Origin: Apostichopus japonicus
Taxonomy: Eukaryota > Echinodermata > Holothuroidea > Aspidochirotida > Stichopodidae
Length of the DNA: 64,000 nucleotides
NCBI RefSeq assembly: GCF_037975245.1
Contig: NC_092569.1
Location: 23,216,168 to 23,280,167 of the forward strand
Direction of reading: 5' to 3'
This document shows, in pieces, positions 5,081 to 62,760 of the stretch. The position numbers and the translations under genes were made by a program. The notes under the pieces are model-generated. The model was given only the letters and a program-made list of their open reading frames with translations. It had not been told where the DNA came from and searched no databases. The stretch's first letter is position 1, and every line of letters begins with the position of its first letter.

Positions 5081-6343
5081 TGAGATTAATAAAGCAAATG
5101 CAATATCATCTTTCAAGAAATAAATAGATAAGCAAAGTGTTTATAAGTATGTTGTTTGAATCAATGTAAGTCAGGTGGTTTCCATTTGATTAGTGAGTCC
5201 CTTTTGAGGATTTGACTAGGCAAATATTTTGTTGGACATTGAATTATATTGGTTTCATCGCAACCACTGTAGAATGATTGAGTACATCGTCACATTCTCT
5301 CATTTTCACACATCTTTATCCGAAAATGCAGCTCTATAATGTTTATACCTTTAAATACAGCAAGCTCTCTCGCTTATTTATTTTCAAACATGAAAAAGTA
5401 AATAGTTCTTTGAATAACGATACGAAGTTAATTTTCCATGATTCAATTTTACTAAGTTTCTAAACACAAAGCATAAGCTCTAGCAAAGAAAAAATGGAAT
5501 TCAACAATTATTTCAAACTATCCTTGTCAGACCTCTTTAAGTCTTCAGACCTGTGTATTAATATGCAATTGATAAAGTAACAATTCCCACACGGAACACT
5601 ACAGACTTTGATGTAAATGTTTCAAGTGGATTTTACTGTTAATCGTTTGCGTCCCTTTCATATTCACTGATATATGATAATGGCTAGTTTTACTTCTCCA
5701 TCAGTATAGCCCTACTTGTAATATAAAGCTACGGTGATTTACTGCCTTCAGTTTACTGTCAGCATACCGTAGTTTTTTCATCGTTTCGTCAGGGCGTTAA
5801 AGAAAAGTACAGGGTTTGACGGGAAATTAGAACCTCAATAAGTCCTAGATTGGCTTCCTATATATAGTCTTCTTTCAACAATTTTTCTAAAGTTTAGTTT
5901 TCTTCTGAATACAGAAATATTTAATTAAATTTAATTTAAGTAATATTCATTTAAACCAAGGCTATTTAGCTTAACGTTATGGACTTGACCGGAGATCACA
6001 GTTGTGTTTCCCGATAGAGATCACGAGGGGAAGAATCATATCAAGATGGCTGACTCGTAGTTTTTACTGCACGATTTCAGTAGTCTCGATTTCCTTGTCC
6101 AATGAGGTTTGACTTCCTTGTTCTTCTGTCTACCGACGCGCGTTAGAGACAACATTTAGGTGGAAACTACCATACTACTAAAATGCATTTTTTAATGAGG
6201 TTAACTATGTTCTGTATTTTCTACCGTACATTCTAAATTACTCGATGTAAGGTACGTTATGTCATCGACAGAGGTGAAAGTCATTATCAACTTGAATTCA
6301 GAGAAGGGCGAGTCACCAGAAAAGATTTCACCCTTTCGTCAAA

Positions 6344-6421
6344 ATGATCAGCAAGTTTTATTCAATCTTCCAATTTTTATTTTTCCTTTGGACAACTAGC
6401 TGCCTCGTTTTTCGTGAATCG
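6344..6421 (+). CDS. FREP copy 1 exon 1 (signal peptide)
   Basis: Encodes 26 codons starting MISKFYS with a hydrophobic core and a phase-0 end at a strong donor (GTAAGT at 6422). It is nearly identical to 19389-19466. The start is set by this conservation. The match stays strong through about 250 bp upstream, which must contain the promoter and 5' UTR. Confidence 0.8.
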
Positions 6422-6620
6422 GTAAGTTCTAGTACTTTTATATTTTTTAATTTAATCCAGCATAAAAGTCAAAGTCAATTCATATTTGGTTCCTTCTTAT
6501 GTAGCACACAGAAACTACAGAAAAGAATTTTAAACGCATTTTATTATGAACCTTCTTCAGTCATCTGTAGTAGTATAGATGTTTTAATGTACTTGCGCGA
6601 TAACAGAATTTGAAACTAAA

Positions 6621-7680
6621 GTTTTGATTGTTCAAAAGATAATATAAGATATTGGAAATGGAGATATGATAATTCCTCAAATTCAGAACAATGTTCATAT
6701 TTGGTATATTGTAGTGATCTGTATTGAAATAAACATCATTGTCTGTAACGCTTCAAAAGTCCGTAACAAATAATTCAAAAATTAAACGCAAAGGATATTG
6801 AAGTGTTTAGAGTAAACTTTCGAGTAGATTTAAATATACTTTTTCAGAGTAATGAAATACTTTTAACTAATTTTAAGCTCCCTACAAAAAGAGTCCCAAA
6901 TTAAAACAAAGTAAAAACGTTCAAATCTTGAATAGCAATTCTCCTTTTGACCATATTTTAAAGTAAAGTTTTGATTGTTCAAAAGATGGTATATGATATT
7001 GGAAATGGAGACATCATAATTCCTCAAATTCAATACAATGTTCATATTTGGTATATTGTAGTGATATGTATTAAAATAAACATCATTGTCTGTAACGCTT
7101 CAAAAGTCCGTAACAAATAATTAAAAAAATAAACGCAAAGGATATTGAAGTGTGTAGAGTAAACGTTTGAGTGGATTAAGAAATACTTTTTTCAGAGTAA
7201 TGAAATACTTAAAATTAATTTTAAGCTTCCTACAAAAAGAGTTTCAAATTAAAACAAAGTAAAAACGTTCAAATCTTGAAGTGCAATTCTCCCTTTTGAC
7301 CATATTTTGAATTAAAGTTTTGATTGTTCAAAAGATGGTATATGATATTGGAAATGGAGACATCATAATTCCTCAAATTTAATACAATGTTCATCTTTTG
7401 GAATCCTGCATTTGTCTGTATCGAAATAAAAAAGATGGTCTGTATCGCTTCAAAAGTGCATGAGAAATAATTCAACAAAATAATAATAAACGCAAAGTAT
7501 ATTTCAGTAATTACAGTTAACGTTGAAGTTGATTCAGTTAAACCTTTTTCAGATTAAATTAAGTACTTAAGTTATTTTAAACTCCCCACAAACCACAAAA
7601 GAGTCTCGAAATTGAAACAAAAGACAAGCAATGAAATCTTGAACAGAAAGTCTCCTTTTGACTATATTTTAACAAATCAA
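6621..7680. repeat. ~348-bp tandem repeat, 3 units, in FREP copy 1 intron 1
   Basis: Units begin with GTTTTGATTGTTCAAAAGAT at 6621, 6968 and 7317. Each contains CATTGTCTGTAACGCTTCA or a variant. In copy 2 the corresponding stretch (about 19668-20280) is only about 1.75 units, one having been lost by a join near 19932. Confidence 0.85.
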
Positions 7681-10600
7681 GAAATAAAAAGAGATTCGAT
7701 AATCATTAAATATTATATTTTTGGCAAAAATATTGAAATTAGAATTAAATTAAATTAAATCTAATGCTTTCAAGTTCGTTTATGTTTTACATTAATCTCA
7801 GAAATTAAAAGCATTAACCTTTAGAATTTCTGCAATGTGGTAAAGAAGGCACTAGTTGTATGTAAAGTAAAGGTGTTAGATGAAAGATCGGATAATCAGG
7901 ATGGATTTTTTTTTGCAAATTCGATAAATAATGGTAATAGTACTAGTAACTTAGTAACGTTCTGGAACCATTTAAGACACAAGCATGTAGTTAAACATTC
8001 AAAGTTCTTTAAATAAAAACGATATAAAAGATGTATAAAATATTGAGCTCTTGTTGTGTTAGTAATTCATAAACCCGTATTCCTACCTTTAACTTTAAAA
8101 GTGAACATTAACCTGTTAGTTGTATATCTCTCATAGGTACAACTTCAGAACTGTCATGTGTTTAAAAAAGACGTGCTAAAATTTGTAATAGGATTTTATC
8201 ATTAATGAAATCAGACATAATGCAGACTGTCATAAATGCAAGTTTTACCGATAGTATCATTCAAATACGGTAGTTTCAAATAAAGAAAAGTTATAGCTAA
8301 GATGTACATGTCCATACTTTGAATATCTCGCTTCAGTTTCTTAACTTTATAATAATTTACGAGAAAAGAATGTTTTGACTTGATATTAATTATAGTTTTC
8401 ATCCGTCTAATTCAATTCACATTGAAACTTATGATTTAATATAATGCCACCAATTTTGTATTCCGATGTAGATCTTCTTTATTTAACAGAAATCTATCAA
8501 TTTCAATGAAGCAATGGACAAATAACAAAGTTAAATTTTAATTGAGTAACCAATTTAGCGTAAACTCTACATGATTTACTGAGGATGAATAAAATTAAAG
8601 TTAATGTTAGACGTAAAAATCTCTGGACTTACAGTTTTGTGCAATTTGCCAAGTTTAAATGAGGGAAGGCAAATATACATGAAATATATATCATTTTAAT
8701 ATACTAAGACATTTTCGCAAAGTCTATAATAAAACTTCAAGAAACTTAATAAATAATTCTTAAGATTTGCAGAATCTGTCGAGCATTTGCAGTTAACCCA
8801 TAGATATATTTTTATATCCTTCAAAGATTTAGAAAAAAAAGCAAATAAGTCATATTGCACATCAATTTGGCGAAAGAATGAGTCAATATGATTTCACCTT
8901 CTAAACTTTGAGAACCATTGGCATATCATTCTTCCCAACTGCTTCTTCATTTAATGTATTGTAGTCTTACAAAAGTTATACAACTCGCTTAAGATTATAC
9001 AAGGATGAGAGAAGTCAGAAAGTAAATAGAGCATGTTCTGAATTTCAAATAAAAGAATATACCAGCATACGTTTATTGTAAATTGTCGTTATATGATCTA
9101 TTAAATCATATATTGTGTGTAGCTTCAAGATAAGTAGAAAATTCAATAATAACTCAAACAAGACAATTTGAAAAAATCAAAATCAATGTATTGTAAAAAG
9201 GACCCCTTCTTTGTCACTTAAAGTTAAAGGTTCGGTTATGACTAAAACATTTTTTTTTTTAAACATTTTTGGGCACAATAAATTTTCAAACATAGAACAG
9301 TATCGTCAATATGAGTGTTTTTAGTACTGGTAAAGTTCCTGTGAGACTTGCTTCACCAGTGCGAAGCTGTGTCAATCGTAAGTAAGCTGCATATTACGAC
9401 CTTCGTTTCAGGACAACAACAAAATATAAGAAACATACGTAATGTGTACTTTTAAATTAATTACTAAGAGAAATACGTTCAACTAAATACATGTAAGATA
9501 AAGTATTCTGCAACGTTATTGGCAACCATGTTGATGTTTTCTTTTAGTTGTAACTGTTTGTTCTTACGTTCGACTATCTGCAAAAGTATGTGGATTTACA
9601 AACTAAAATCAGAAGATAGTAAGTAAATGTAAAACATTAATTTGTACTGTAAACATAAAGAAAACACATATTTTGCTTAATTCCAATGAAATTTGAAAAT
9701 CGCTATGCGTCTAATACTTTTATTGCTCATAACTCCTACAAAGTAGTATGATTCGCGATCAATATATATTCTTGGTTCAACAGATCGTAACCCATTCCAG
9801 CAAATATCTTATAAAAAATGTTAAGTCTCAATTCATTGCCGTTTCGAACAATATAAGTTCCGATAACTTTTCTCGAATACTTACTTAGAGTAAAAGATTC
9901 CGGGATACAGGATACATTGGAAAGACCTTACATCCAACTAAATAGGCTGATAATTTTTTGAATATTCGAAAATTCAACATTTGTTGATTTGATCTTCTTT
10001 TTCTTTATGTCAGACTCTTAATAATTAAGATCACAGCGACTGTATGTTTGTATTTTAACACTGACAGTTTATTGCTGAACATTGATACTTAATATATTGA
10101 CGATACGTTTGTACCTAAGGGCTACCTCTGTGTATTATTGATATGTTAGCTGAGCGATACAATTAGTTATTGGTATACATTTCTTAACCGAGTATGTCAT
10201 AATAGCTTTAAAAAGGCACCTCATTTTTCTTAAATTTGATCACAACTAACAGTTACATCAATCCCATACTCGTAGATACATAACTTTTACGTCATTAATT
10301 ATTATTTATAACAACACAAATAAAGTGTTACTTAGAAAGAAGAAAAAAAAAACAACCGTAAGATAACAAAAAAGGGAGGAAGTTGTAATGCCATAACTTG
10401 TTGTCAGCCAGCAGAAGATTTTGCATTTTTCATTAACTATCTTGTTATCTATATTTTCCTCTGAAGTTTAATACACCATTTTCGATTGTAAAAAAAAAGT
10501 ATTTCCTTCTCAAAATAAACTGATATTCCGGAGCAATGTCTGTGTCTGTTTTTGTTTTAATGAAAAATACAATAGTAACAATTCATTTAAAGGGAATGTC

Positions 10601-12811
10601 ACTTATAAGTTTTTCTAAAAAAATATATGTCGTAATTTATTTATTCTGTATCATTAGCTAACAAATCTATACTTGAATTTGCTATTTCTGGTTCGGTTGT
10701 CACTTTAAAAAAAAAAGGGGGGGTGTTGATATGTGTTTACAACATAACCTGAAATTACATGTGCATTGTGCAATATTTGTCACTTCATTGATTTCGTTAT
10801 GTTTTACACAGCTGGTACGAACATTTTAAATCTTCCCACTCCCTAACACCTCAAAAAATAGTAATATATTAAGGTTTCAATGTCAACATAAAAACCGTAT
10901 AGGAAATTATCAGGATTTAATTCAGTAAGGTTATAATTATATTGTTTCCTGGTAGATATAAAGCTCTTACATCATGTAAACGAAATAAGTGCATTTTCGC
11001 TTTAACTGTCTCGTCAATTTCTTTCTCTTCAGTGTAAAATTTCAAATGCAAAGATTGAGATTGATCTCTGTTTAGAAAGAACGACAATGCCTATATCAAT
11101 TATTTTTTTGTCAACCAGGAAGGTTTAAGATTGGGGAATGCAAGTTAGAATTGTAGAAGGAAGAGTTATTGTTGTAAAAACGTAAACACAACAGAGTACA
11201 ATCATTTTCATCTGCTAGTCTAGTCTACACATTTAATTTGCATCTTAATTCATTATCATTCGAGCGTTGTCTAATGAGCCCTCGAAGGATTTATGAGTAC
11301 TGATTATTTATAGTGGAGCTAGGCTGTTTATCTGAATTCTGTTTAGTGTTAACCTATACCATGTCTCTTTTAACGGTACATTACAAATATCTGTATTAAC
11401 ACTTCTAATAGATTCAAACACTCCATGCCTTGGCGATACATGTTTTCATCCTCCCACTCCCGTTGTTTGAGAGAGGAATGTGTGAGCTTGTTAGCTTAAT
11501 GTTTGAAATGGACAACTCGAGTAAAGATAAAAGCGAGTCGAGTGATTTGTGTTCATCATCGGTCCCCCTCTCTGCCCTCTCATTTCAATTGGAATACATT
11601 TTTCTTTCTAATTTTAAATGAACCAATTTCAATAATTTCAATTTCAATAGCAATATTGTTGCACCCATAGAGTAACTGACATCTTCGCTATCCCCAAATC
11701 TATCCAACCGGCAATCACTACTTGTTTTTTTAGTTGATGCATTCAAGTAGGCCCAGTAAGTATTTCCAGTAATACTTCTCAACGTAAATGGGACACACAT
11801 TTCACATTTACTCCGTAATATAATGAAAACCTGTTTTCAAAAAAGTTTGAAATCTTTTTTCAGAGCTTGATATCCAGAGGTCACTGATTCGAATCATGTT
11901 CTATCCAAAAGCTTCTTTGCTCTATTCCATTGTTTAAAACAACAAAGTCACTTTCCTGTTATTCATTTACATATATATATATATCTTTTTTCTTCGGTTA
12001 GAGTGCCCAACAGACAAGTGATGGATCTACTAATGGAAAGATATTAGGTGAGTGATGCTTTCCCCTCTTGATTCCAAATATGTAATTTAAATATAGTAAA
12101 CCCTTGTTACATTATATTTATCATGTAAACAACACATGCATTAGGGCATGATTTTTTTTTTTGGGGGGGGGTGGTTCGTCTGAAGTATTAGTGGACGAGA
12201 ATGGAAGAGGAGGTAAGGTGTTTTGGAGCATTCAAATAGAAATCTATCTTAACAGTTAAACAAAACAGTAGATATAACTCATGTTAGATTTGTATGTATA
12301 GTGTAAAGTACGCAGTGTTAGGTTGTGCTGTTAGAGTAACTTTTTTCTGCAAAACTACAAGTGTGAGACCTTTCGGATAGTTGAAATTAAGAACGTGTTG
12401 TATGCAATATATGTAAACCAATATCAAAAATGCAAAGTAAAAAAATAATGTAGACAATTTTTTATTTATTTCTTTGCTTTTTAGGTTCATCATCATTTTT
12501 CTTCTATCAACAATCGACTTATCCGAGAGATTGCAGAGAAGTCCAGGGGCAATGTTCATCCAATAACTCTTCCGGTGTCTTCATGATCAAACCAGATGGT
12601 TATCTGGATCCATTTGAGGTTTACTGTGATAACACCGACAGTTCCGGTGGATGGACGGTATGTCTTTGGTTTCTTGCTCTTCTATCAACAATTGTCAGAC
12701 TGAAACAATCATGTTCACAGCAGCTGGAAGAGTATTAACGATGTTACTAACATAGGCGTTGGAGGCGGGGGGGGGGGCTGGGATGGCTGCAGCCCCACAA
12801 CCAATTTTTTT

Positions 12812-13195
12812 TGTGAAACTTCGGAAGAAAAAATTGCAGTGTGTTTTTCATTTTTTTTTTTGGTGAAAATTCGGGCAATATGCTGAGAATTTTTCGGGCA
12901 TCTACTGAAAAAGAATAATTTGCAATGTGTTTTTCATTTTTTGGGGGGTGAAAATTCGGGCAATATGCTGAGAATTTTTTCGGGCACCTACTGAAAAAGA
13001 ATAATTTGCAATGTGTTTTTCATTTTTTGGGGGGCGAAAATTCGGGCAATATGCTGAGAATTTTTCGGGCACCTACTGAAAGAAGAATAATTTGCAATAT
13101 GTTTTTCATTTTTTGGGGAGTGAAAATTCGGGCAATATGCTGAGAATTTTTCGGGCATCTACTGAAAAAAGAATAATTTGCAATGTGTTTTTCAA
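12812..13195. repeat. 85-bp tandem repeats inside the hAT-like element
   Basis: Four near-identical units begin with GTGAAAATTCGGGCAATATG (or a one-base variant) near 12863, 12949, 13034 and 13119, preceded by a partial, more diverged unit. Variation is mainly in A and G homopolymer length. Confidence 0.9.
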
Positions 13196-13290
13196 TGGTT
13201 AAACTGATATTATTATTATCGTTATTATTGTAACGACTTCCCCAATAATTCTAACCAATATGGAATGGTAATAACACGGAATATTTTTCG

Positions 13291-13418
13291 CGCTCTCCGC
13301 GCGCGTTCAACATCTTAATGTGCATGTCAAATAGGCTTTCATCGGTTATCGGCATGTGATGTAAAACCGATGAATGCCTATTTGATAGCACATTAACTTG
13401 TTGAACGCGCGCGGAGCG
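13291..13418. repeat. Long palindrome inside the hAT-like element
   Basis: The left arm CGCTCTCCGCGCGCGTTCAA and following bases pair with the right arm ending GAACGCGCGCGGAGCG. The arms are about 55 bp each around a loop near 13346-13364, and would form a long stem-loop in single strands. Confidence 0.9.
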
Positions 13419-14875
13419 AACAAAAATTTTGGTTATATTTTTCGGGCAAGTCGTTACAGCCCATCCCCCCCCCCCCCCCAATCAAATTAGGCTCCTACGC
13501 CTATGGTTACTAATATCGGTAACAATGTTATATATGTTTAAGTTACATTGTGCTATTCATTTATTTTTTAATTACCTAAAGACAGAGACGGCTGTGCTGG
13601 ATGCCAAATATTGCGCATTGAATGAAAGATCAGTAACTCTCAAATCATTTCGGTAACGACTCTGTCCATAGGTAATACAAAGGCGTATCGACGGGTCCAT
13701 CGATTTCAGGCGCGACTGGGACAGCTACAAGTCTGGCTTCGGGTTTCTCTCTCATGAATTCTGGCTTGGCAACGAGAAGTTGTCTTTCTTGACCAACCAG
13801 AAGAAATACCAATTGGTGATTGAGATAACCACATCAAGCGGTTACTTAATTCGGGTTTCTTACGATGATTTCCGTATAAGTGACGCCTTTAGTCACTTCA
13901 AGCTGGTCAACCTCGGAAACTATTCTGGAGAGAATACTGGTGAGTTATCACGGAAAAAATTAGATATAAACGCAATATTATACCCACATTTCTTAAAAGG
14001 CTTTAATATATGTGAAGATTACTTGTTTCGTGACGTCGTCAAACATTTCATTAGATGACAGATATGCAGGGTCATCAGGGGAGATTCACTGACAAACCTC
14101 TCTGGCCCATTTGGTACATCCATCTATGGTCAACCATCGCTTTGATAACAGAATACATGTGAACTTTATTTATCAAACACTTCATTCACTTCATTAGGTA
14201 ACATACATTCCGAGTAACATTAATGTAATAATAATTCAAATTAATTTTATCTTACAGATGCCATAACATTCACTTCATTGACACCAGCAAAAGATTGTCA
14301 GGAAATTTATGATGATGGTTCTAGAAACAACGGTATAAACAGCATCAAACCAACCGGATGGACCGGGTCAGCATTTGAGGTCTACTGTAACATGACTGAC
14401 GGAGGAGGATGGACGGTAAGTGTTATAGCCTACGATAAGCACGGAGATTACATTATGAACTATATAGTTCATTAGTAGATCTTGCACTGGAATACATTTT
14501 TCTCTAATGTAAGACTAACCTTAATCGTAACCATTCTTATCACCGATCTATGTCTTTTATTGGATTTTTCGTGATTTTCTTTGTCATTGTTCTTAATGAT
14601 ATTCGTTTTATATACAAGAACATTTTACATTGTACCACAGTCTATTGACATTTATTTTTTATTCTTTACCTCCATGATTGAGGAAGTTTGGTTTGTTCTA
14701 CCTTTGAACTAATTAATTTGCCAGATGAAAAGTTTTTACGTATCAAATAACCTTAAGAGGGTAGTTCATTTTGAGAATATGAGATTTCAAATTTCACACC
14801 CGGGAGGCCACAAATATTATTCACGTTTGTGTTATTAACTACTTTTATCATTTTCAAATCTTTAAGGTGTTCCAG

Positions 14876-14878
14876 TGA
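14876..14878 (+). other. Premature stop TGA in FREP copy 1
   Basis: The reading is GTG TTC CAG TGA CGT, against GTG TTC CAA CGA CGT in copy 2 at 27688. A CGA-to-TGA change is the classic outcome of deamination at a methylated CpG. Skipping the 265-bp exon would shift the frame, so splicing cannot rescue it simply. Confidence 0.8.
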
Positions 14879-16899
14879 CGTGTCGATGGTAGTCAGGACT
14901 TCTACCTTGGATGGAACAGCTACAAGCAAGGATTTGGAAATTTAAATATTAATTTTTGGCTCGGAAATGATCAACTTTATTACTTGACCAACCAAAAGAG
15001 ATATGAAATCAGAATCGACTTAGTGAACAGATACGGAGCTCCATACTACGCCAAGTTCGACTTTTTTAGGACAAACGACGAAAGCGATAACTATCGGTTA
15101 TCCGGTGTTGGGACCTACAGTGGAACAGCAGGTTTGTAGCCTACACATCTCCTTTAATACTAAATATGGTATTTCAGTCTTACTAGATATGAGACATGAA
15201 CAGGTTATCGTTTCATCGAAACTACCTTTCTCTAGAAATATATTATTACTTCAGTTAAGTATAGTATATATTGACATCATCTTAAGGATAAAGAAGTAGA
15301 TAACAAGGTATGGAGGCCAACCAGATTAAAAATGCATCAGCATAGGAAACTACCTAAAGCTGTATTTTATAGTTACCAGTTCCACAATCCTGGCAACATT
15401 GTCCAATACCTCCAAAAGTGCAATGACTGGACACTAATTATAAGCACCGTTAAACCACTATTTAGAAGCAATCACTAAATGATAAATACAGACAGGAAGA
15501 GAATGCTGCATGTATCACGTATAAGGAAACGGAATAAGTTAGTCCAAAGAGGACATTGCAAAAAGCTTAACAATAGACTTAATTTTAACTTACAATTCAA
15601 GATTCAAGATACATATTCAAAACACTATCTAATGACTGACTGGCATGCTCAAAACATTTAGAACTGCTCCACATATCCTTACATTTGTTAATTTCTCTGA
15701 GACGTATCCCGGGAGTGGGAGGGGGACATCCATTGCTCAAAACTATTTTGTTGTTGTTACCCAATTGCATAATATAAGTGAGTAGATCATAAAAACATGC
15801 AGTATTGACAATTCACACAATTCATCACTATGCATACATGTAATTACACCTCTCATACATTGGTGATGAATAACAAACCACGAACAAATGTAGACACTAA
15901 ATCTAGTGTGTTTTATTTAATAGCACAATAACAAAAAGTGAATCTTACTCTGACACAATAAATAAGCATTCTGTCTTTAGTAGGTCTATACAAAACGACG
16001 ATTGTCGCATATGTGATCAGCTAGATATATAATTTACAGCTACATTGTGATACTTGGTGATAAGATGTATCTTAGAGATACTCACTGGAATGTATTGATT
16101 TAGTATGATGTGCAATAAAAAAAGAGAATTATGGTCATATGGGTACACCTGACTACATTAAAATATTCATCAACAACTAATATCGTATAAGTATTATCAA
16201 TAATACCAAAATCCAATAATAGCTATTAACCAGAGAAAAAGCCTCGCATGATCTCGTTTCCCTAAAACTAAATTCATACATTGGAATAATAGAATTGACG
16301 TGAAGAATGTTAATCAACCAGTCTGGTTATATGTTAGTGATTACAGAAAATGATATTGAGAAGGTTAAGCATGTATCAGACGTACAACAGTTATATTGAT
16401 GATTGGTATTGACGGTGTGTCTTTGTATTTGATTCTTTCTTCCAGGAGATGCTCTAAGTTATCACCTGAACCAGCAGTTTACAACAAAGGACCGAGACAA
16501 TGACGCTTATGGTTCTTATAACTGTGCAAGTTATTATTATTATTATAACGGTGCATGGTGGTACAAGAGTTGTCATCATTCTAACCTGAACGGTGTCTAT
16601 GCCGCTTACTATTTCCAGTGGAATAACCTCCCCGGAAGTTATTATTATGTCAAATTTACAGAGATGAAGATCCGCCCTATCTAAAGACTGAATCAGATGA
16701 AGGGAGAAAACTGTTACATCGCTGATCGTAGAAAAAACATTACTTAAGATATTAATTTAAACAACAATTGTTTTTTTTTATTTGAAAATAATAAAGAAAC
16801 TCTGAATCCATGTGACCATGTTTTAATAGCACTACTCGCATTTCGTTCCACGTTACCGTATCTATACTACTTAAACGTGTGATGGATAAAATGAAACGA

Positions 16900-17680
16900 A
16901 TAAAGTAGTTTGATACGATATGAGCAATATTGTAAAAATATATAGATTAAAGGAAATGAATTAAAGCTAATGACAGTGGCGTAGCCATGGGTGCAAGTGA
17001 CGCCCCCCCCCCCACTTGTGCATTTACAAATTATATATATATATCGTATATCGTATACCGTATATCTTATAGTTCTTTCCATTCTGCTTTACAACTATAT
17101 TGACATCATGGTAATTTGCAACGCGATAAAAAAACAACTTAACTCTATCTTGATATCCCTAAACTATATGTTGCTGAGTCTTGGACAGTCCTCTATTTTT
17201 TTCTTTAACTGGGAAAATATAGGTATAGTTACAATATTTGAATTGATGTGTTTATAGTAAGCTACCAATATTATATATCTTGAACACAATTAACGGAAAT
17301 TTTAAGCAACGATATCATCGACAAATTGCCTTTGATACCCCCTACCACTTGACGCAATGCGTTCAAAATCATCGGTTACCGAAAGAAAAAAAAATCTACC
17401 GTGTGGCTTTGAATAATGTTTCGTTCGCATTTAACTTCATTATCAAATCAAATCAGTCGTAAAGAATTTTTTGAAACGCCAGCGATATTTCCGTCTGACA
17501 ACGGTTTTTGAGATTCTGCAGGAAACGTAAATTCTAGAAAGAAAGCTTAGCAAACGGCGTGTCATGAATGTATTTCCCGTTATTTCTGTACGTGTTTTTC
17601 TCACCAATGGCGGTGCCATAGGAGTAGGGATTTCCAAAAACCTGGATGTTCCCAAATCGCGTGAATGGAGTCAAGTTTTA
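16900..17680. other. Spacer between the two FREP units
   Basis: No exon is supported. A fragment at about 16974-17026 (GTGGCGTAGCCATGG, a run of C, then CACTTGTGC) looks like a short hAT-like MITE end. A short TA run follows at about 17032-17050. Confidence 0.5.
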
Positions 17681-20600
17681 GATTAAGAAAAGCAAATACA
17701 ATATCATCTTCCAAGAAATAAATAGATTGGTTAAGAAATTATAAGTATGTCGTTTGAATCCATGAAATTTCTAGTTTCCTTTTTTTATAAATTAGTCGTT
17801 TTCGAGGAATTTACCTTCTCCGTTGTTTTGCTTCGCGACCACTGTAGGAGTACTACCTAAATACAGAACCCCGAATTAATGTTATTACATTTCGAATCAT
17901 CTTCATTTGCGGAATAGACGCTTCGTTCGTATTTACCCATTCACAGAACTGATTCACCAGGCTTGCACATCCTTTCCCTTTGACAACCTAAATAATTGCT
18001 CATATACATCCCACATCTTCACATATCTTTATCCGAAATTTCAGCTTAGAGTACGCCCTATAAAAATTATAATTTTAAACACAGCATGCTACAATAATCA
18101 TGCCTCGCGTGATTGACTTAAGATTCTAACCGTGTCTTCTACGACAACCTAGAAACCACTAACAAAGAATACAAATTCTCACGTGCACATTCAAACTGCT
18201 TCAAATTGAAGAACAATGGCTCATTGGCATTACTTCTGTAAATATCATATTTTCCACGAAGCAATTGGTGGGTGTACATAAGAACTTCAAGATTTGTAAA
18301 TATTTACTTAATGTTGCATTGTATTTTGTGTTTTTTGCCAATGGCTCGAGAGACATGACGATATGAACGAAACATTTCCCCAAAGTTCTATTTCCTGCAG
18401 GAAAAGCCTATTACCTATGCAAAGTGATTGTATGGACAAGTTAATAGTTTCTTGAATAACGATAAGAAGTTAATTTTTCAGGATGCAATTTGCTATAAGC
18501 AAAAGCTTCACTTTCTTACCACAAAATATAAGCTCTTGCAAAAAGAAATATTCAAAATGCCACAATTATTCCAAACTATCCTTGTCAGGCCTATATAAGT
18601 CTTCAGACCAGTGTATTTATATGCAATTGATAAAGTAACAATCCCCACGCGAAACACTACAGACGTTGATGTAGATGTGTTCAAGTGGATTTTACTGTTA
18701 ATCGTTTGCGACTCCCTTTCTCATTCATTTATATATGATAATGGCTAGTTATACTTCTCCATCAGTTTAGCCCTACTTGTAATATATAACTACGGGGATT
18801 TACTGCCTTCAGTTTACTGTCAGCGTATAACATTGTTCTTCCATCGTTTCGTCAGGAAGTTAAAAAGAAGGACAGGGTTTGACGGGAAATTAGAACCTCG
18901 ATAAGTCCTAGATTGGCTTCCTATATGCGCAATCTTCTTCCAACCCTTTTTCTACAGTTTACCTTTCTTCTGAATACAGAAATATTTTATTTTATTTAAT
19001 TTAAGTAATATTCATTTAAACCACGGCTATTGACCAAAAATCACAGTTGTGTTTCCCGAAAGAGATCACGAGGGGAATAATCATATCAAGATGGCTGACT
19101 CATAGTTTGTACTGTACGATTTCAGTAGTCTCAATATCCGTGCTCACAGAGGTTTGACTTCCTTGTTCTTCTGTCTACCGATGCGCATAAGAGACAACAT
19201 TTAGTTGAAAATACCATTTTACTTTAATTCCTTTTCTAAATGAGTTACCAATGTTCAGTATTTTCTACCGTACATTCTAAAATTACTCGATGCAAGGTAC
19301 GTTATGTCATCGACAGAGATGAAAGTCATTATCAACTTGAATTCAGAGAAGGGCGAGTCACCAGAAAAGATTTCACTCTTCCGTCAAAATGATCAGCAAG
19401 TTTTATTCACTGTTCCAATTTTTATTTTTCATGTGGACCACGAGCTGCCTCGTTTTTCGTGAATCGGTAAGTTCTAGGACTTTTATATTTTTAAGTTAAA
19501 CCCAGCATAAAAGTCAAAGTCAAATTTTATTTTGGTGCCTTCTAATGTAGCACACAGAAAAAAAAGAGAAAATAATTTTAAACGCATTTCATTTTAACCT
19601 TCTTCAGTCATCTGTCGTAGTATAGATCTTTTAATGTACTTGAGCGATTACAGAATTTGAAACTTAAGTTTTCATTGTTCAAAGATGATATAAGATATTG
19701 GAAATGGAGATATGATAATTACTCAAATCCATGAAATTTGCATATTTGGTATATTGTAGTGATCTGTATCGAAATAAACATGATTGTCTGTAACGCTTCA
19801 AAAGTCCATAACAAATCAATCAAAAAGTAAACGCAAAGGATATTGAAGTGTTTGGAGTAAACGTTCAAGTCGATTAAGATACACTTTTTTTCAGATAAAT
19901 TAAATACTTTAAATTAACTTTAAGCTCCCTATAAGATATTTGAAATGGAGACATCATAATTCCTCAAACTCGATACAATGTTCATCTTTTGGAATCCTGT
20001 ATTTGTCTGTATTGAAGTAAAATGATGTTCTGTATCGCTTCAAGAGTGCGTGATAAATAATTCAACAAAATAATAATAATCGCAAAGGATATTTCAGTAA
20101 TTGGAGTTAAGGTTTGAGTAGATTCAGGTATATCTTTTTTTCAGATTAATTTAAGTACTTTATATTTATTTTAAACTTCCCACAAAAAAGTCTCGAAATT
20201 GAAACAAAAGACAAGCAATCAAATCTTGAACAGCAAGTCTCCTTTTGACTATATTGTAACGAATCAAGAAAATTCCACCAAAAAAAGAGATTCGAAAATC
20301 ATTAAATATTTATATTTTTGGCAAAGATGTTTAAATTAGATTTTAATTAAATTAAATATAATGCTCTCAAGTGTTTTCATGTTTTATATTCATCTCAGAA
20401 ATTAAAAGCGTAAACATGTAGACTTTCTGCAATGCGTTGAAGAAGCCACTAGTTGTGAGTAAATGTAGTAGATGATAGATCGAATATCAGGTATGGGATT
20501 TTTGAAATCTTTCAAATAAATTAGTTTATTGTAATATTAATAATAACTTAGTAACGCTCTGGAACCATTTAAGACACAAACATGTAGTGAAAATTAAAAG

Positions 20601-23508
20601 TTCCATAAATATAATAGGTATAAAAGAGGTATACAATATTTAGCTATTGTTAAGTTAGTAATTTATAAACCAGTATTCCCCATCTATAACTTAACAACAG
20701 CAATTTCACCTGTTAATTGTATATCTTCCCCACCGGCACAAATTCAGAACTTTCATGTGTTCATTAAAGACGTGCTAAAGTTGTTAATATGATTAAATAC
20801 TAATGATAGCAGACAAAATGCAGAATGTCATAAATGCAAGTTTTACCGATAGTATAAATCGATTACGGTAGTTTCAATTATATAAATAGAAACGTTATAG
20901 CTAAGATTTACATGCCCATACTTTGAATATCTCGCTTCAGTTTCTTAACTTTATAATAATTAACGAGAAAAAAATGTTTTTAATTCATATTACTTCTCTT
21001 AAAGTTTTCATCCGTCTACTTCAATTCACATTGAAACTTATGATTTACTATAATGCTGCCAATTTTGTATTCCAATGCTCGAATATTACATCTTCCTTAG
21101 TTAACAGTAATCTATCAAATTTAATTAGGCTATGAACACATAACAAAGTTTTCTTTTAATTGAGTAACCAATTTAGCGTAAACTCTACATGATTTACTGA
21201 GGAGAAAGAAAATTAAGGAGTTTAAATGAGAGAAGGCAAAAATACATGAACTTTATATCATTTCAATATACAAGGACATTTTCGCAAAGTCTACGATAAA
21301 ACTTCAAGCAACTAAATAATTATTTCTTAAGATTTGAAAAATTTGTCGAGCATTTGTAGTTAACCTATATATACATTTTTATATCCTTCAAAGATTTAGA
21401 GAAAAAGCTAAACTCAACTGTTTCTTCACTTAACGTATTGCAGTCTTCCAAGAGTTATACAACTCTTTTAAGATTATACAAGGATAGGAGAAGTCAGAAA
21501 GTAAATAAAACATGTTCTGAATTTAAAATAAAAGGATAGACCAGCATACGTATATTGTATCTCGTCGTAATATGATCAATGAATTCATATTTTGTGTTAT
21601 AGCTTCAAGAAAGTAGAATATTCTTTAATATCTCAAACAACGCAAATTGCAAAAATCGAATTGAAATTAGTGTAAAGAGGACATTTTCTTTGTCACGTAA
21701 CGTTAAAGGTTCGGTTATAACTAAAAACATTTTTTTTGTTATTAACATTTTTTGGGCACCAATAATTTTTCAATCATAGAACAGTCTCGTGAAATGAAAT
21801 TGTTAATATAATAATCAATGCCTACCGTACTTAGTATTGGTATTGTTCAGTATCGCCTCATAACGTTATAACGTGATTATATTTTAAACTAATACATTCC
21901 TATGAGACTCGCTTCACCAGTGCGAAGTTATGTCAACCGTATATAAGCTGCATATTACGACCTTCGTTCACGAAAAAAAATTAAGAAACGGACGAAATGT
22001 GTACTGTCAAATAAATTACTAAGACTAAATCGTTCAAATAAATACTGGTAAGATAAATTATTCTGCAACGTAATATGCAACCTTGTTGATGTAGGCCTAA
22101 ACTTATTAATATTTGTTTTTACTTTCATAGACAAAAGTATGTGGTTTGTGGTTATTTTCGCTTATTGTTCCACAATTTCCCACAATGATAAGATTTGCTT
22201 TATTTACAAACAAAAATCAGGAGATCCTAAGTAAATGTGAAACATTGATATGTACTATAAAAATAAAGAAAACACATACTTTGCTTAATTCCAATGAAAT
22301 TTGAAAATCATTATCATTAATCATTGCTCATACAAAGTGATATGATGCGCGATCAATATATATTCCTGGTTTAACAGATCGTAACCTATTCCAGCCAAAT
22401 GTCTTATAAGAATATTATGTCCAAAGTCATTGCGTATTCGAAAATATAACCTTCGATAGCTTCTCTCGACCACTTTACTTAGAGTCAAAGAATCCGGAAT
22501 GCAGGATAAATTTGGAAAGACCTTATATCCAACTAAATAGGCTGAGACTTTTAAAAATCTTAAAAATTCAATATTTTGTTGATTTGATCTTCTATTTGTT
22601 TGTGTCTTCATAATTTAGATCAATGTGACGAGATGTTTTTAATTTAACACTGAAATTATATTGCTGAACATTGATACTTAATGTATTGACGATACGTTTG
22701 TACATATAGGCTACCTCTGTGTATTATTGTTATGTTAGCTGGGCAATACTATTAGCTATTGGTATACATTTCTTAACCGAGTATGTCATAGTACCTTTAA
22801 AAAGGCACCGGACTTTACTTTGATTTGACTAACAGTTACACCAATCCCATACTCGTAGATACATAAATTTTACATTATAAATAACAATACAAATAAAGTG
22901 TTACTTAGAAAGAAAAAGAAAAACCGTAAGATAACAAAAAATGGAGGAAGTTCTAATGCCACAACTTGTTGTCAGCCAGCAGAAGATTTCGCATTTTTTT
23001 CATTAACTATCTTGTTATCTATATTTTCCTCTGAAGTTTAATACACCATTTTCGATTGTAAAAAAAGTATTTCCTTCTCAAAATAAACTGAAATTTCGGA
23101 GCAATGTCTGTGTTTTTTTTTATTTTATGAAAAATACAATAGTAACAATTCATTTAAAGGGAATGCCACGTATAGGATTTTCTAAAAAATATGTCGTAAT
23201 TTATTTATCCTGTATCGTTACCTAACAAATTTATACTTTAATTTGCTATTTCTGGTTCCGTTGTCACTTTAAAAATAGGTTGATATGTCTTTACAACATA
23301 ACCTGAAACTAGATGTGCATTGTTCAATCTTTCTCACTTTATTGATTTCGTTATGTTTAACAAAGCTGGTACGAAAATGTTAAATCTTCTAACTCCCTTA
23401 CACCTCCCCGGACAAGAAAATAATAATATAGTTAAGTTTTCAAAGGCAACAGAAAAACCTTAAAAGAAATTTGCAGGATTTAATTCAGTAAGATATAATT
23501 ATATTGTT

Positions 23509-24043
23509 CCGACTCTCCAAACTGTACCTTTTGCGATACGCATATTGAAAGTATAGAACATCTGTTCTGGGAGTGTAGTGTGACATCCACCTTTATTTTA
23601 GGGGTTGAGGCTATGTTATTAAATAAGCAATTCTCTTTCTCCAAGAAGGATATCCTTCTTGGTTTCAGTGTTGATGTAGCTCACCCAAACAATTTTCTTA
23701 TTTTATATATGAAGCATTTCATCTTTCAATGTAAATTGAATAAATGTATTCCTGCTGTAGAGGATTTCTTCTATAAATTTAAGTTTACAATAAGTGTAAA
23801 AAAGTACACAACATCGATATCGTAGTAAAAGTAAGGTTAACTTTATGCAGCTTAAACAAGCCTTTAGGACATGTGATTCTCTTTTCCAATAATCTCGTTT
23901 GATCTATTGTGCTGTTTATTAAAACAACTGTTATTTTGTTATGACGTTTATTTAATATGAAGCATCTATAGTATGAAAATATGAAGTCTATTAATTTGAC
24001 TGAAGTTATCAATAAATGGAGGAAAAAAAGAAGAAAAAAAGAG
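23509..24043 (+). mobile_element. 5'-truncated LINE tail in FREP copy 2 intron 1
   Basis: Carries the last ~100 codons of the Tx1/L1-like LINE: DSPNCTFC, IEHLFWECS, LLNKQFSFSKKDI and FFYKFKF, very close to the copy at 45408. It ends in an A-rich tail. A 12-bp target duplication AATTATATTGTT flanks it (23497-23508 and 24044-24055). The same 12 bases occur once, uninterrupted, in copy 1 at 10935-10946. Confidence 0.92.
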
Positions 24044-26540
24044 AATTATATTGTTTCCTTGTAGATATAAAAATCTTAGAGCATGTAAATGAAATAAGTG
24101 CATTTTCGCTTTAACTGTCTCGTCAAATTGTTTCTCTTTAGTGTAAAATTTCGAATGCAAAGATTGAGGTTATTCTCTGTTTAGAAAAAAACAACAATGC
24201 CTACATCAATTATTGTTTTGTCAACCAGGAAGGTTTAAGATTGATGAATGCAAGTAAGAACTGTAGAAGGAAGAGTAATCGTTGTAAAAACGTAAACACA
24301 ACTAAGTAAAATTTTTTTTTTTATCTTCTAGACTAAGCTTTTAATTTGCTTTTTGATTCATTATCATTCGAGCGTTGTCTGATGAGCCCTCGAAAGATTT
24401 ATGATTATTGATTATGTATAGTGGAATTAGGATATTTATCTGAATTCTGTTTAGTGCTTTCCCGTACCATGTTCTTATAACGGTACATAACCAATATATG
24501 TATAAGACTTTTAAATGAAATAAAACACTCAATGCCTTGGCGTTACATGTTTCCCCCTCCCCTCCCGTTGTTTGAGATAGAAATATGTGAGCTTGTTAGC
24601 GAAAACATTTTTTAAATGATCAACTTGAGAATAGATAAAAGCAAGGCGAGTGATTTGTGTCTATCATCAGCCCCCTCTCTGTCTTCTCATTTCAATTGGA
24701 ATACATTTTCTTTCTAATTTTAAATGACTTGAACCAATTTCAATAATTTCAATTTCAAGAACAAGATTGTTGCACCCATATAGTAACTGACATCTTTGCG
24801 TCCCCAAATCTATTCCACAGGCAATCACTTCTGGTTTTGTTCATTGCTGTATTCAAGTACACCCAATACGTTTTCCCAGTAATACTACTCAACATAAATG
24901 GGACACATACTTCACACTGACTCGGAAATATAATGAAAACCAGTTTTCAAAAAAGTTTGAAATATTTTTCAAAGCTTGATATCCAGAGGTCAATGATTCG
25001 AATCATTTTTAATCCATATACTTCTTTGCTCTATTCCATTTTTTAAAACAACAAAGTCACTTTCCTGTTATTGGTTACAAATATTATTTTTCTTCGGTTA
25101 GAGTGCTCAACAGACAAGTGATGGATCTTCTAATGGAAATATATTAGGTGAGTGATGCTTACCCATCTTGATTCCAAACATGTAATTAAAATTAAAATTA
25201 AACCCTTGTAACATTAGATTTATAACGTAGACAATACTTAAAAAATATACACATGAATTGGGGCGTGGTTTGCGGGGCTTCGTCTGAAGTATTGGTGGTC
25301 GAGAATGGAAGGTAATTTAAGGTGTTTTCGAGCATTCAAATTAAATTCAAATTAGTCGCCGTAACTTATGTCAGATATGTCTGTTGAAGTGTAAAGTACG
25401 TAGTGTTCCACCTTTTCACAGATATATTTTTTTCCTAAAGTCACATATTTTTTGCAAAGCTACGGATGTGAAGTCTTTCGAATAGGGGAATTAAGAACGT
25501 GTTGTGTGTTATATGCGTAACCCATTGAAAACGCAAAGTTAACAATGATGAGAACAACTATTTTTTTATTCCATCACATCATAGGTCAATCATCATTTTT
25601 CTTCTATCAACAATCGACTTATCCGAGAGATTGCAGAGAAGTTCAGGAGCAATGTTCATCCCATGACTCTTCCGGTGTCTTTATGATCAAACCAGATGGT
25701 TATCCCGATCCATTTGAGGTTTACTGTGATAACATCGACAGTTCCGGTGGATGGACGGTATGTCAAAAATTTTCAGACTGAAATGACATTGTTCACAGCA
25801 GCTGGAATAGTATTCATGATGTTAAAATACCGTTAACAATGTTTTATATGTATAAGTTACATATGGTAAAGAAAAATACATTTTATTTGTTGCTTGAAGA
25901 TTGAATGTGAGATCACTGGCTACAAAATCATTTCGGTAACGACTCTGTCAATAGGTAATACAAAGGCGCACCGACGGATCCATCGATTTCAGGCGCGACT
26001 GGGACAGCTACAAGTCTGGCTTCGGGTTTCTCTCTCATGAATTCTGGCTAGGCAACGAGAAGTTGTCTTTCTTGACCAACCAGAAGAAATACCAGCTGGT
26101 GATTGAGATAACAACATCAAGTGGTTACTTAATCCGAGTATCTTACAATCATTTCCGTGTAAGTGACGCCTTTAGTCACTTCAAGCTGGGCAACCTCAGC
26201 AATTATTCCGGAGAGAATACTGGTGAGTTATCACTAATAAATTAGTTAACAACGCAATAACATACTCATATGACATAAAAGGCTTATATATATGTGAAAA
26301 TGTATTGTTTCGTGACGTCGTTAAACATTACATAATATGACATATATGCAGGGTCATCGGGGGGAATATCACTGACAATCCTCTCTGGCCCATTTGGTAC
26401 ATCCCTCTATCGTCAACCATCGTTTAAATACAAAAATACATCTGAACTTTACTTATCAAACACTTAATTCTTTTCATTGGATTATATACATTCCTAGTAA
26501 CATTAATGTAATAATAGTTCCAATTAATTTTATCTTACAG

Positions 26541-26751
26541 ATGCTTTAACATTCTGTCCCAGCAATATGGACATTGATAACTGCAGTACCGCGTGTCAAC
26601 GAACTTGTGAAGCCCCAGGAATCTGTCAGGATGAGGTCTGTACTGATGGTGAAGTCTGTTTTGTCCCGATGGATTCTTCATGAAGGGATCTCACTGTGTA
26701 GCTCCTAAACAATGTGGATGTTACGTATCAGAAGGGCAGACGATCGTAGCA
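26541..26751 (+). CDS. FREP copy 2 exon 5, TIL-like cysteine-rich module (frameshifted)
   Basis: Length 211 bp. The phases of the flanking exons need a multiple that gives 213 including the carried base and a restored one, so exactly one base is missing. In frame it begins DALTFCPSNMDIDNC with regular cysteines. After TTTT at 26659 the cysteine pattern continues only in the shifted frame (PDGFFMKG, HCVAPKQCGCY). Trypsin-inhibitor-like modules of this type occur in von Willebrand and mucin-type proteins. Copy 1 has no equivalent. Confidence 0.75.
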
Positions 26752-27829
26752 GTAAGTACAGGAGTCATCCATTAAAGAAATAATAAAAACGACTAATAAA
26801 CTTTAATGTAGAACTTGTACGTTACTAATATGTTATACATAACTTTAATCTCAATTTAAATAATTGCTACAAACTGGAGTAAGGGATGACTGCATATTGT
26901 GATATCAACACGTGTTAAACTATAACATACCATTTTTCTGACAGGAAGGTGACTTTTTTGTGAATTCTGGATGTACAAGAAAGGGTGTTTGTACGAACGG
27001 TGAGATCATCTGGGATGAAGGTTACGCATGCAGCCCTAAAGCGGAGTGTGGCGTACGGAATGAAATAAGACAATGCTATTGTGCTAATGGCTACAGAGGG
27101 GACGGTGTAAATTGCACGAGACCACCTAAAGATTGTCAAGAAATTTTTGAGGATGATAGTACCAGAAACAGCAGTATATACAGAATCAAACCGACCGGAT
27201 GGACAGGGTCAGCATTTGAGGTCTACTGTAACATGTCTGACGGAGGAGGATGGACGGTAAGTGTTATAGCCTACGATAGGCACGGGAATACATTACGAAC
27301 TATATAGTTCATTTCTAGAACTTGAAATGGAATGGATTTTTTCTGATGTAAGGCTTACTTTAATCGTTAACAGACTTTTCACCGATCTATGGCTTCTGTC
27401 GGATAATTTTAATATTATTTCACATGAGTTGTACCGCAATCTATTGCCATTTATGCATTTTTTGAATCCCATCGTGTTGAATCTTCACCTTCTGAGGAAT
27501 TCTGATTTCTTTTTTCATATATACTCATTGTATAGCCTAGGTTGAAAGTTTTTGCTAATCACATTACCATAAAGGTATTCCATTTCAAGAATACGAGATT
27601 TCAGAATTCCACATCCGAGAGGCCACCAATATTATGCAACTTTGTGTTACAAACTATAATTACGATATTTCCTTTGAAATCTTATAGGTGTTCCAACGAC
27701 GTGTCGATGGGAGTGAGGACTTCTACCTTGGATGGAACAGCTACAAAGAAGGATTTGGGAATTTAAGTTTTAATTTTTGGCTCCGAAATGATAAACTTTA
27801 TTACTTGACTAACCAAAAGAGATATGAAA

Positions 27830-27831
27830 TA
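27830..27831 (+). other. 19-bp deletion junction in FREP copy 2
   Basis: Copy 1 reads ATGAAAT, then 19 bases, then AGATACGGAGC. Copy 2 reads straight through ATGAAATAGATACGGAGC. The exon is 246 bp here against 265 bp in copy 1. The frame then runs into TAA soon after the lesion. Confidence 0.9.
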
Positions 27832-29782
27832 GATACGGAGCTCCATACTACGCCAAGTTTGACTTTTTTCGGATAAACGACGAAAGCGACAACTATCGGT
27901 TAACCGAGGTTGGAACGTATAGTGGAACTGCAGGTATGTATAATTAACCATGAATTACTTTATAGGGACATTGCTGTTATTTATGCTAACCATATTTGTG
28001 TGAACGTCCATGTCTAGCAGTCAACCACTTCAAAGACAATTAAAAATTCTTAAACATGATTAAATTCAGATTATGGACAAAGATTTTGAATGAATATCGC
28101 CTATAATAGATTGATGCCAAACTCGATTAGGCGGCATAAATTTATTTTTTTTAAATAGGTTAATTTTAGTTCAAATCTACAATTATATAAAAATGTTATC
28201 CTCAAATCTTTGTAAATCTTTGATTTACATTACCTCTTTTTTGCTCATCACATACTGCTTTGGAAGTATTGAATTGTTTCCATCACTGCGTAATATCTAC
28301 CATCCAAACAATTATTAACAACTTAGTTAATTTAAGTATATGGATGCTTCCTCAGTACTGTCATTAATGAGTTGCTAAATGTCCGATCCACAATGACATA
28401 CATGTAATTATTTCTTATAAATCATCTGAAAGGCTATGAGTTATTCAATCATGCGGTCATCTATAATTAAATTTACACAAAGTGTGCAATACACTCGTTG
28501 GTTTTACTAACGACACCATTTTATTTTGTATCAGACACGTAAACATGTGCCGTTATTGATTAATCATGTTGCTACGGAAAGCAGCATAAGTTTATCTCAG
28601 TCTATACAGAAAGTAAAGATTCTAGCCTAACCAACCACCTTTCACCATAAGTGCAGCGACAGCCCTACGAAATAAAACATCCCTATGTTCTGCTTATCAA
28701 TTAATCTCTGAGTTAAACATTTCGATATTTGGATTCATTTACATTAACATCCCGTTGGACTCAACGTTCTGATAATTGTACATATTGAAGACGAGAATTA
28801 GAGCGAATGTGTCCTGACAGTCTGCATACGCCCCAGAAATTCCTAAAAAGCTCTAAGATGACGCAAACGAGAACAATAACATAACATAAATTCTTGAACG
28901 ATATTCATACTCCGGTACCCACTTGACATTATTTGACACGTAGATCAATGTAACAATTAACATTTCACATATCATGGATATATAACCCTTGAAGTGATAA
29001 TATTTTATTCATAGCCTCGATTCTTAGGTGTTATAATATAAGGCAAATACGAAAATACAGCAGATATGTAGAGTTACGTCTTTCTATCTTACTGATACAT
29101 TCTACGTAATTCAATGATTAAATTGAAAAACCCAAGTGAGGTCAACATATTTATTAGTAATCATTCATTTCTATTACAATGTTAAGTCAGCTCTTAATGA
29201 AAAACATTACAATAAGCAGAGGAATAATTTATCCTGAGTTAGTACAAGTGATAATTGGCAACAGACGTTACAACTTTAAAGTAAGAATATTGTTTACTCC
29301 TACGTCTGTGCTTCTCTTGTATTAATTCAAAAACAAATCACCGAACGCACTTTGTATCTGACGCATTTAATAACACAAATCAAAACAACAAATAGAATTA
29401 TATAATTGAATGACAGTCATAAGAAAGGATATGAATTCATGATGCAGTTTAACGTCGTACATTACTAAACTGAAAACAACGCCTCATTGTGAATCAACAC
29501 GAAACAAGATCCTTGCACGATAATATTCATTGCAATTACAATTGTTGAATGCATGATGTAAATATATATATATTGATCTTTTCTTCAACAGATACCGGAG
29601 GACGAAGTACCCCTGATGGCTATGCACTTAGTTATCACCTGAATCAACAGTTTTCAACAAAGGACCGAGACAACGACGCTTATAGTAATAATTGTGCAAG
29701 TTATTATAAAGGTGCATGGTGGTACAATGATTGTTCTATTTACTCTAGTCTGAACAGTATCTACGGGAATTATTACTTTTAT

Positions 29783-29785
29783 TAG
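29783..29785 (+). other. Premature TAG in last exon of FREP copy 2
   Basis: By alignment TGG (Trp) in copy 1 corresponds to TAG here. The normal-looking frame continues for 20 more codons to KIRPI and a TAG at 29846-29848. Confidence 0.85.
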
Positions 29786-30789
29786 TATTACCTTCCCGGA
29801 AGTAATTATTATCTCAAATTTACAGAGATGAAGATCCGCCCCATCTAGAGATTGAAGCTGACGAAGGACGAAAACTGTTACATCGCTGATCAAAGAAATA
29901 AAAAAATACTTGAGAGATTCATTTAAGAACAATTGAATGTTTTTCATTTGAAAATAAAAAGAACGACTTGGCTAATTTGTAATGGCACTTCTCGTATTCT
30001 TTCCAAGCTTACCTAATTTATCTAGTCTATTTTCCCGTTAAACGTACGATTGAATATAATGAAATAAAAAGAAACCGAAACATTCTCTTTGACGTCCAAA
30101 AATTAATTTGTTTGGGTAGTAGTTGGCTAACAAAACGCTATAACTTCCTGGGCTTCGTTCCCTGGATACCTATAGGCTCAAAAAAATTGGAACCTCTAAA
30201 AAATTTTTCTGTGCTTCCGTTAAACAGCTACAAGTAAGATGTCTGAGACCACTGCCGCTTCCGGGCCTAGAATACCTCCCACAGAAGTTAAAATTCATCT
30301 TTCTGATATGTGGTTTGGTTCTTAAAGTCGCTTAGAGAGAACAAAAGATATCTCAAATTCCAACTATTTCCGGGGACTTTGAACTTTATAAACGTGCTTT
30401 TTTGTACTTTCAAAATGTTCCAATATCATCCTTTTCCCAGTTACCCCTCCCGACCCCCAAATTGGCCGTCACTTTCTCTCACATTGAAAGAAAACAATTC
30501 TAACTGTCTTTACAATTTCATTCTTGCCTACCATTTCAATTAATATGAATGTTATTTATAAATTGTCTTAAAACGTTGCAATGCTCTATTCGATTCTTTA
30601 ACTTTATGTATTGCAAGGGGAATGTCTTAAACCGACTGCAACCCGACCACTACTTGAGTCGCGTGACTGCCTAAGTGTGACAAATTCCATTGAAGCTTTA
30701 AGATGACGTCATCGGCTTGACCTTTTTCGAACGCCGAGTGTTATCGAACTAGAACCAGTTGGTTGTTTTTCTTCAGGTTAGCGTGATTC

Positions 30790-30833: not shown

Positions 30834-30985
30834 CATATACATATATATAAATGAAAATCGTAATGAATTGGAAAATCAAGAACAGTGAAAAAACTTTCAG
30901 CCTCCACCGGGATTCGAACCACGGGCCTTACGCTCTGTACGCGGACACCCTAACCACTAGGCTATGGACGCTGATTGTATGTCCA
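30790..30985 (-). mobile_element. tRNA-derived SINE
   Basis: On the minus strand an A-box-like TAGCCTAGTGGTTAGG (30947-30966 region) is followed by a B box GGTTCGAATCCC (30909-30920 region) with tRNA spacing. A non-tRNA body follows (CACTGTTCTTGATTTTCC) and the element ends in a TA-rich tail at about 30800-30850. The cloverleaf is imperfect, so it is a SINE head and not a tRNA gene. Confidence 0.7.

Positions 30986-44868: not shown

Positions 44869-44873
<5 letters not shown>
44191..44873. repeat. ~43-bp minisatellite at the 3' end of the kinase gene
   Basis: About 15 units built from GATTCATTGATTCATTT and GATTCATTGATTCATAGG plus TTGTTTTT, with some short units. On the minus strand it begins exactly at the kinase stop codon, which itself lies in the motif CAATGA, so it forms the start of the 3' UTR. 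Confidence 0.95.
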
Positions 44874-62626
<17,753 letters not shown>

Positions 62627-62636
62627 GACGACGAAA

Positions 62637-62760
62637 CTTGAATGAAAAAGAAAATGAATAAAAATAACAATAATTCTAAGTGTACGGAAGTTATACGGTA
62701 TACTGTCTCTTCGTTTACATAAAACAATCCAATTCTACTTACCAACTTGTTTGACGCATG
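62637..62760 (-). other. Likely 5' UTR intron of the kinase
   Basis: Reading the minus strand, AACAAGTTG is followed by a consensus donor GTAAGT at 62742. A pyrimidine-rich stretch ending CAAG at 62637 sits 10 bases before the start codon. This gives a 106-bp intron and puts the first, non-coding exon above 62743, near GCGCATGCG. Confidence 0.5.

Follow-up and report, generated by a model that had tools for sequence, protein, structure and literature searches.

The 64,000-nucleotide stretch of Apostichopus japonicus DNA analysed here (contig NC_092569.1, positions 23,216,168 to 23,280,167; hereafter the window) carries two head-to-tail copies of one FReD gene between about 5 and 30 kb. These are probably tandem paralogues encoding secreted proteins, which stayed under joint constraint for a long time and were then lost separately and late, i.e. 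an instance of birth-and-death turnover with recent null copies. Such turnover had been proposed in the first-pass annotation of this DNA, and the evidence (constraint after duplication, followed by late lesions) is consistent with it. If correct, the pair provides a small dated case of recognition-gene turnover, with copies that were kept for most of their divergence and then broken late and separately. The process itself is already known, and turnover of this type is ordinary for such families.

Both copies lie on the plus strand, copy 1 at about 5.06–16.8 kb and copy 2 at about 17.66–29.96 kb, in DNA that is animal-like and AT-rich (28–40% G+C in most 2-kb steps of the window). When the window was compared with itself, nt 5390–16798 aligned with nt 18432–29963 at about 79–88% per piece, and weaker similarity between the copies reached back to nt 5062 and nt 17659, respectively. 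Seven exons were modelled in copy 1 and eight in copy 2, and their order in each is a signal-peptide-like exon, a 46-base exon, exons A and B, and then C', D, E and F. All modelled introns have GT...AG borders and the phases fit, except for two phase breaks that are found exactly where the two frameshifts claimed for copy 2 predict them, so that the earlier statement that splice sites and phases are kept in both paralogues holds.

The putative signal-peptide exon of copy 1 (nt 6344–6421) is an ORF with a hydrophobic stretch (recognised by eye) and a GTAAGT donor, and shows 92% identity to its counterpart in copy 2 (nt 19389–19466). A direct junction to exon A is ruled out, as the first exon ends in phase 0 while exon A starts in phase 1, and for this reason the 46-base exon is needed. 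A scan of the 6-kb intron 1 for conserved exons gave exactly one candidate, running from phase 0 to phase 1 (nt 12002–12047 in copy 1, nt 25102–25147 in copy 2), and none in the reverse-complement control. When the thresholds were loosened, the forward strand still yielded this single candidate, and the reverse control yielded one whose phases differed.

Exon A (nt 12485–12657 in copy 1, nt 25585–25757 in copy 2) and exon B (nt 13672–13939 and nt 25955–26222) encode the first and middle parts of a first domain, FReD1. In copy 1 they match positions 2–44 (30.1 bits) and 45–131 (89.4 bits) of the Pfam Fibrinogen_C profile (PF00147, cut-off 22 bits), and the copy 2 scores are nearly equal (28.6 and 88.9 bits). 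The two exons together match the first 131 of the 221 profile positions, and FReD1 ends at about 131–137. Its own last third is absent from the window, where a tblastn search with the exon F peptide returned the two F exons and one match elsewhere with an E value of 0.056. In copy 1, C' and D form a single in-frame exon (nt 14258–14415) that carries the first part of a second domain, FReD2 (profile 2–44, 34.4 bits). The middle part is encoded by exon E (nt 14867–15131; profile 49–133, 79.8 bits for the part that follows an in-frame TGA), and the last third by exon F (nt 16446–16684; profile 142–220, 59.8 bits), which is intact to its stop codon and has an AATAAA at nt 16790. Exons A, B, D, E and F of copy 1 each score above the Pfam cut-off, and D, E and F together (with an X at the TGA) cover positions 2–220 of 221, which is a complete three-part domain. 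According to the profile searches, the predicted protein consists of a putative signal peptide, a half FReD without its last third, and then a complete FReD.

Between the two FReDs of copy 2 lies a cysteine-rich stretch with similarity to TIL, TILa and EGF modules, every match being just or well below the respective Pfam cut-off. It begins in the C'/TIL exon (nt 26541–26751; TIL 17.2 bits, cut-off 24.5), after which the phase is broken, and continues in an exon that combines TILa/EGF-like sequence with the first part of FReD2 (nt 26945–27256; Fibrinogen_C 28.1 bits). The latter sequence scores 28.2 bits for EGF_3 (cut-off 28.5) and, with the end of the TIL exon, 26.1 bits for TILa (cut-off 27). 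Copy 1 is without 555 bp that copy 2 has at this place, the TIL stretch having been either lost from copy 1 or never present in it. Exon E of copy 2 (nt 27688–27933) is 19 bases shorter than that of copy 1 in the alignment, and its exon F (nt 29592–29848; profile 141–190, 47.1 bits for the part preceding an in-frame stop) has about 30 extra bases at the 5' end.

Copy 1 has 10 plus-strand ORFs of 50 aa or more that lie between its signal-peptide exon and exon A, and Pfam searches of these detected no IgSF domain; the conserved-exon scan of intron 1 in both copies revealed nothing besides the 46-nt exon, hence no IgSF exon. Since no IgSF was found, the gene falls outside the snail definition of a FREP, which calls for one or two IgSF domains besides a signal peptide and FBG, and is to be called a FReD gene. 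The name FREP, used in the first-pass annotation, is acceptable loosely, as FReDs are present, but not in the strict snail sense. Passages of two reports on Biomphalaria (PMC7588048, PMC10875847) describe FREPs, sFReDs and FReMs as secreted FReD families in which genes have been duplicated or lost and some members are truncated; of three B. glabrata lines, for example, one reportedly lacks FREP13, one has a single gene and one has 27. The FREPs described there need IgSF, unlike the gene considered here, and none of the architectures named in those passages (sFReD, FReM, FREP with one or two IgSF domains) corresponds to a half FReD, a TIL-like stretch and a full FReD. A FReM is composed of EGF-like and FBG domains; a candidate EGF-like stretch before the complete FReD occurs here in copy 2 only, with a score just below the cut-off. 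In a PDB search, FReD2 (X at the stop) aligned over nearly its full length with the vertebrate proteins FIBCD1 (4m7f_A, E value 1.2e-51), tenascin-R and ficolins, but these chains carry one complete FReD, and the other domains of the present gene lie outside the match. Searches for two or tandem fibrinogen domains, and for a fibrinogen-related protein joined to a TIL domain, retrieved no publication on either among the matches listed. The layout of the gene is unusual. Family membership and the putative secretion signal suggest a secreted binding protein, by analogy to ficolins, FIBCD1 and snail FReDs, and we infer that the product would act in microbial recognition.

In copy 1, an in-frame TGA (nt 14876–14878) in exon E replaces what is an arginine codon in copy 2, and arginine is also found at this position in the FIBCD1 and tenascin-R chains. 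Copy 2 shows a displacement of the reading frame by one base within the TIL exon, located by the phase break in or near a T run (nt 26659–26662), a 19-base deficit relative to copy 1 in exon E (nt 27830/27831), which shifts the frame, and an in-frame TAG in exon F (nt 29783–29785). The nonsense codon of copy 1 and the three different lesions of copy 2 had all been reported previously, and each of the four places was verified. None of the lesions is common to both copies, again as reported, the TIL lesion being beyond comparison because the stretch is missing from copy 1. Three of the four are not homopolymer indels. The signal-peptide exon, exon 2, A and B are free of lesions in both copies. 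Exon F of copy 2 departs from both copy 1 and FIBCD1 in the motif that follows a conserved cysteine, where copy 1 keeps the S-N-L-N-G of FIBCD1; in FReD lectins the region after this cysteine lines the ligand pocket. Every product modelled for copy 2 meets a frameshift or the TAG, and judging from its sequence this copy is most likely dead. Copy 1 is predicted to be null or near-null for the double-FReD product; as a sign that the whole gene is dead, a single TGA is thin evidence. Between the TGA and the last exon junction there are 253 bases, and a stop that far before the last junction is, by the usual rule, expected to cause nonsense-mediated decay. A secreted half-FReD product of copy 1, which had been allowed for earlier, is less likely for that reason.

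Over the whole gene (387 codon pairs), dS is 0.240, dN is 0.071 and dN/dS is 0.30 (bootstrap 0.20–0.44), in a pairwise comparison of copy 1 with copy 2, which does not assign changes to either lineage. Split codons, pairs containing a stop, the surroundings of the 19-base difference, exon C' and the TIL stretch were left out. The ratio is 0.23 (0.10–0.50) for A+B (FReD1), 0.26 (0.13–0.54) for D+E of FReD2, 0.41 (0.18–0.92) for F and 0.29 (0.04–1.06) for the first two exons. Neutrality of one copy ever since the duplication predicts a ratio of at least 0.5, which is excluded by the whole-gene value, but not by D+E, F or the first two exons alone. Purifying selection thus supports the earlier claim that both copies were functional after duplication. 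Neutral decay since the duplication would have produced about 12.7 lesions in copy 1 and 16.4 in copy 2, against 1 and 3 observed (P = 4e-5 and 7e-5). These expectations derive from noncoding substitution and indel rates (the copies differ by 1066 substitutions and 95 indels over 7154 aligned bases). The rates include no correction for multiple hits and are regional averages, and the timing is rough. As the lesions are far fewer than neutral decay would give, loss was late in each copy, in agreement with the recent loss proposed before; read literally, the counts place the end of constraint within about the final 8% (0–44%) of the divergence for copy 1 and about the final 18% (4–53%) for copy 2. 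Any relaxation that followed the lesions is too recent to show in substitutions.

The course of events envisaged is that, after duplication, purifying selection would have kept both copies producing protein during most of their divergence, as read from the substitutions. Local rearrangement, in the form of the 555-bp module difference and a replaced E–F intron, would have gone on alongside point decay, and each copy would then have taken its own disabling changes at a late stage. Lesions in both copies could be expected of old pseudogenes, dead from soon after the duplication, but the shortfall of lesions relative to the neutral expectation and a dN/dS well below 1 make this extremely improbable. 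Sequence or assembly error, including the laying of two haplotypes in tandem, is very improbable: the lesion at nt 26659–26662 affects a single base in a run of T, and one-base changes at homopolymer runs are a common type of sequencing error, but the other three are substitutions or the 19-base difference. In addition, a dS of about 0.24 together with unrelated E–F introns is too much for two haplotypes, such divergence exceeding, to our knowledge, the haplotype difference in nearly any species. It is improbable, rather than extremely so, that one gene or both still have intact alleles in the population, the assembly having sampled broken ones. The lesions are very few, which would suit such null alleles, and the pattern is known in animals, since the dispensable genes of mussels include FReDs, recognition genes with presence/absence variation (PMC7653742). 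The mussel case, as described there, is one of whole-gene absence, however, while point decay is seen here, known from one assembly.

For copy 1, an escape by splicing has to be weighed against separate late loss of both genes. Exons C'D and E might form a skippable cassette, so that exon B is spliced to exon F and the copy lives on by making a secreted lectin with a single complete FReD and without the TGA. This is unlikely, although several features are in its favour: in both copies the end of exon B and the start of exon F are in phase 1, A+B+F matches Fibrinogen_C at positions 2–220 of 221 with 196.2 bits (194.1 for D+E+F with an X at the stop), and the exons upstream of the cassette are those without lesions. 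Moreover, F is the only last-third exon found per gene by tblastn, and yet FReD1 is constrained. On the other hand, a shared phase is expected from the common exon structure of FReDs and is in itself no evidence of use, the C'D/E cassette is also constrained (0.26), which means that skipping is not the sole mode, and in copy 2 the same splice still meets the TAG. It is rather improbable that the gene is a splice-switch lectin whose shared last exon F would complete either A–B–F (single FReD) or D–E–F (double FReD, with an optional TIL/EGF-like spacer), the TGA of copy 1 abolishing the long form only. If copy 1 does escape, a gene annotated as a pseudogene would live on as a single-FReD gene, and use of the B-to-F splice would show that a FReD gene can carry a nonsense codon in a cassette exon without being a pseudogene. 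Two other routes were rejected for copy 1: skipping of exon E alone is out of phase (265 nt), and an alternative acceptor just after the bases that precede the TGA would leave the TGA in place.

Divergence between the copies is mosaic. In noncoding sequence it amounts to 12–14% in the 5' flank and intron 1, and to 20–27% from the intron between exon 2 and A to that between D and E, except for the B–C' intron (15%). It is 0.134 to the left of nt 12208 versus 0.225 to the right (block-shuffle p = 0.0025), while the best change point over all columns, at nt 14474, is unsupported (p = 0.08). The E–F introns (nt 15132–16445 in copy 1, nt 27934–29591 in copy 2) are not homologous in the alignments and have no recognisable similarity (best noncoding matches of at most 22 bases); alignment resumes at exon F and extends to the poly-A signal. 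The five longest identical tracts (99, 71, 69, 57 and 54) exceed all of 2000 permutations, but two of the five fall within exons (A and B), and a pattern of this kind could also arise from rate variation. Either exchange with another paralogue or intron replacement may have produced the mosaic. Derivation of the whole 3' end from another paralogue would fit both the unrelated E–F introns and the dS of 0.385 in exon F, a value based on few sites (15 of 49.8).

Copy 1 also harbors an 86-bp tandem repeat (4.3 copies, nt 12825–13194) inside a 764-bp stretch that only this copy has. Within a 546-bp stretch found only in copy 2, which was therefore inserted after the duplication or lost since, there is a fragment (nt 23499–23825, plus strand; zf-RVT 21.2 bits, below cut-off) resembling the tail of a non-LTR element located further downstream in the window. 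That element is a long reverse-transcriptase ORF on the plus strand (nt 45394–48621; RVT_1 114 bits, zf-RVT 38.5 bits), and sits between tyrosine-kinase exons of the opposite strand. Four minus-strand ORFs (nt 44869–53656) match parts of a tyrosine-kinase domain, two of them with scores that pass the Pfam cut-off and two with lower scores, and a further minus-strand ORF starting with MGNK (nt 62363–62734) might, by eye, be the first exon of this gene. A 17-bp G-rich minisatellite of 67.6 copies occupies nt 56071–57190, with a GC skew of 0.6 in that step. Directly downstream of copy 2, on the minus strand, lies a tRNA-Cys-like gene (nt 30898–30972) with anticodon ACA, which is unusual for Cys.
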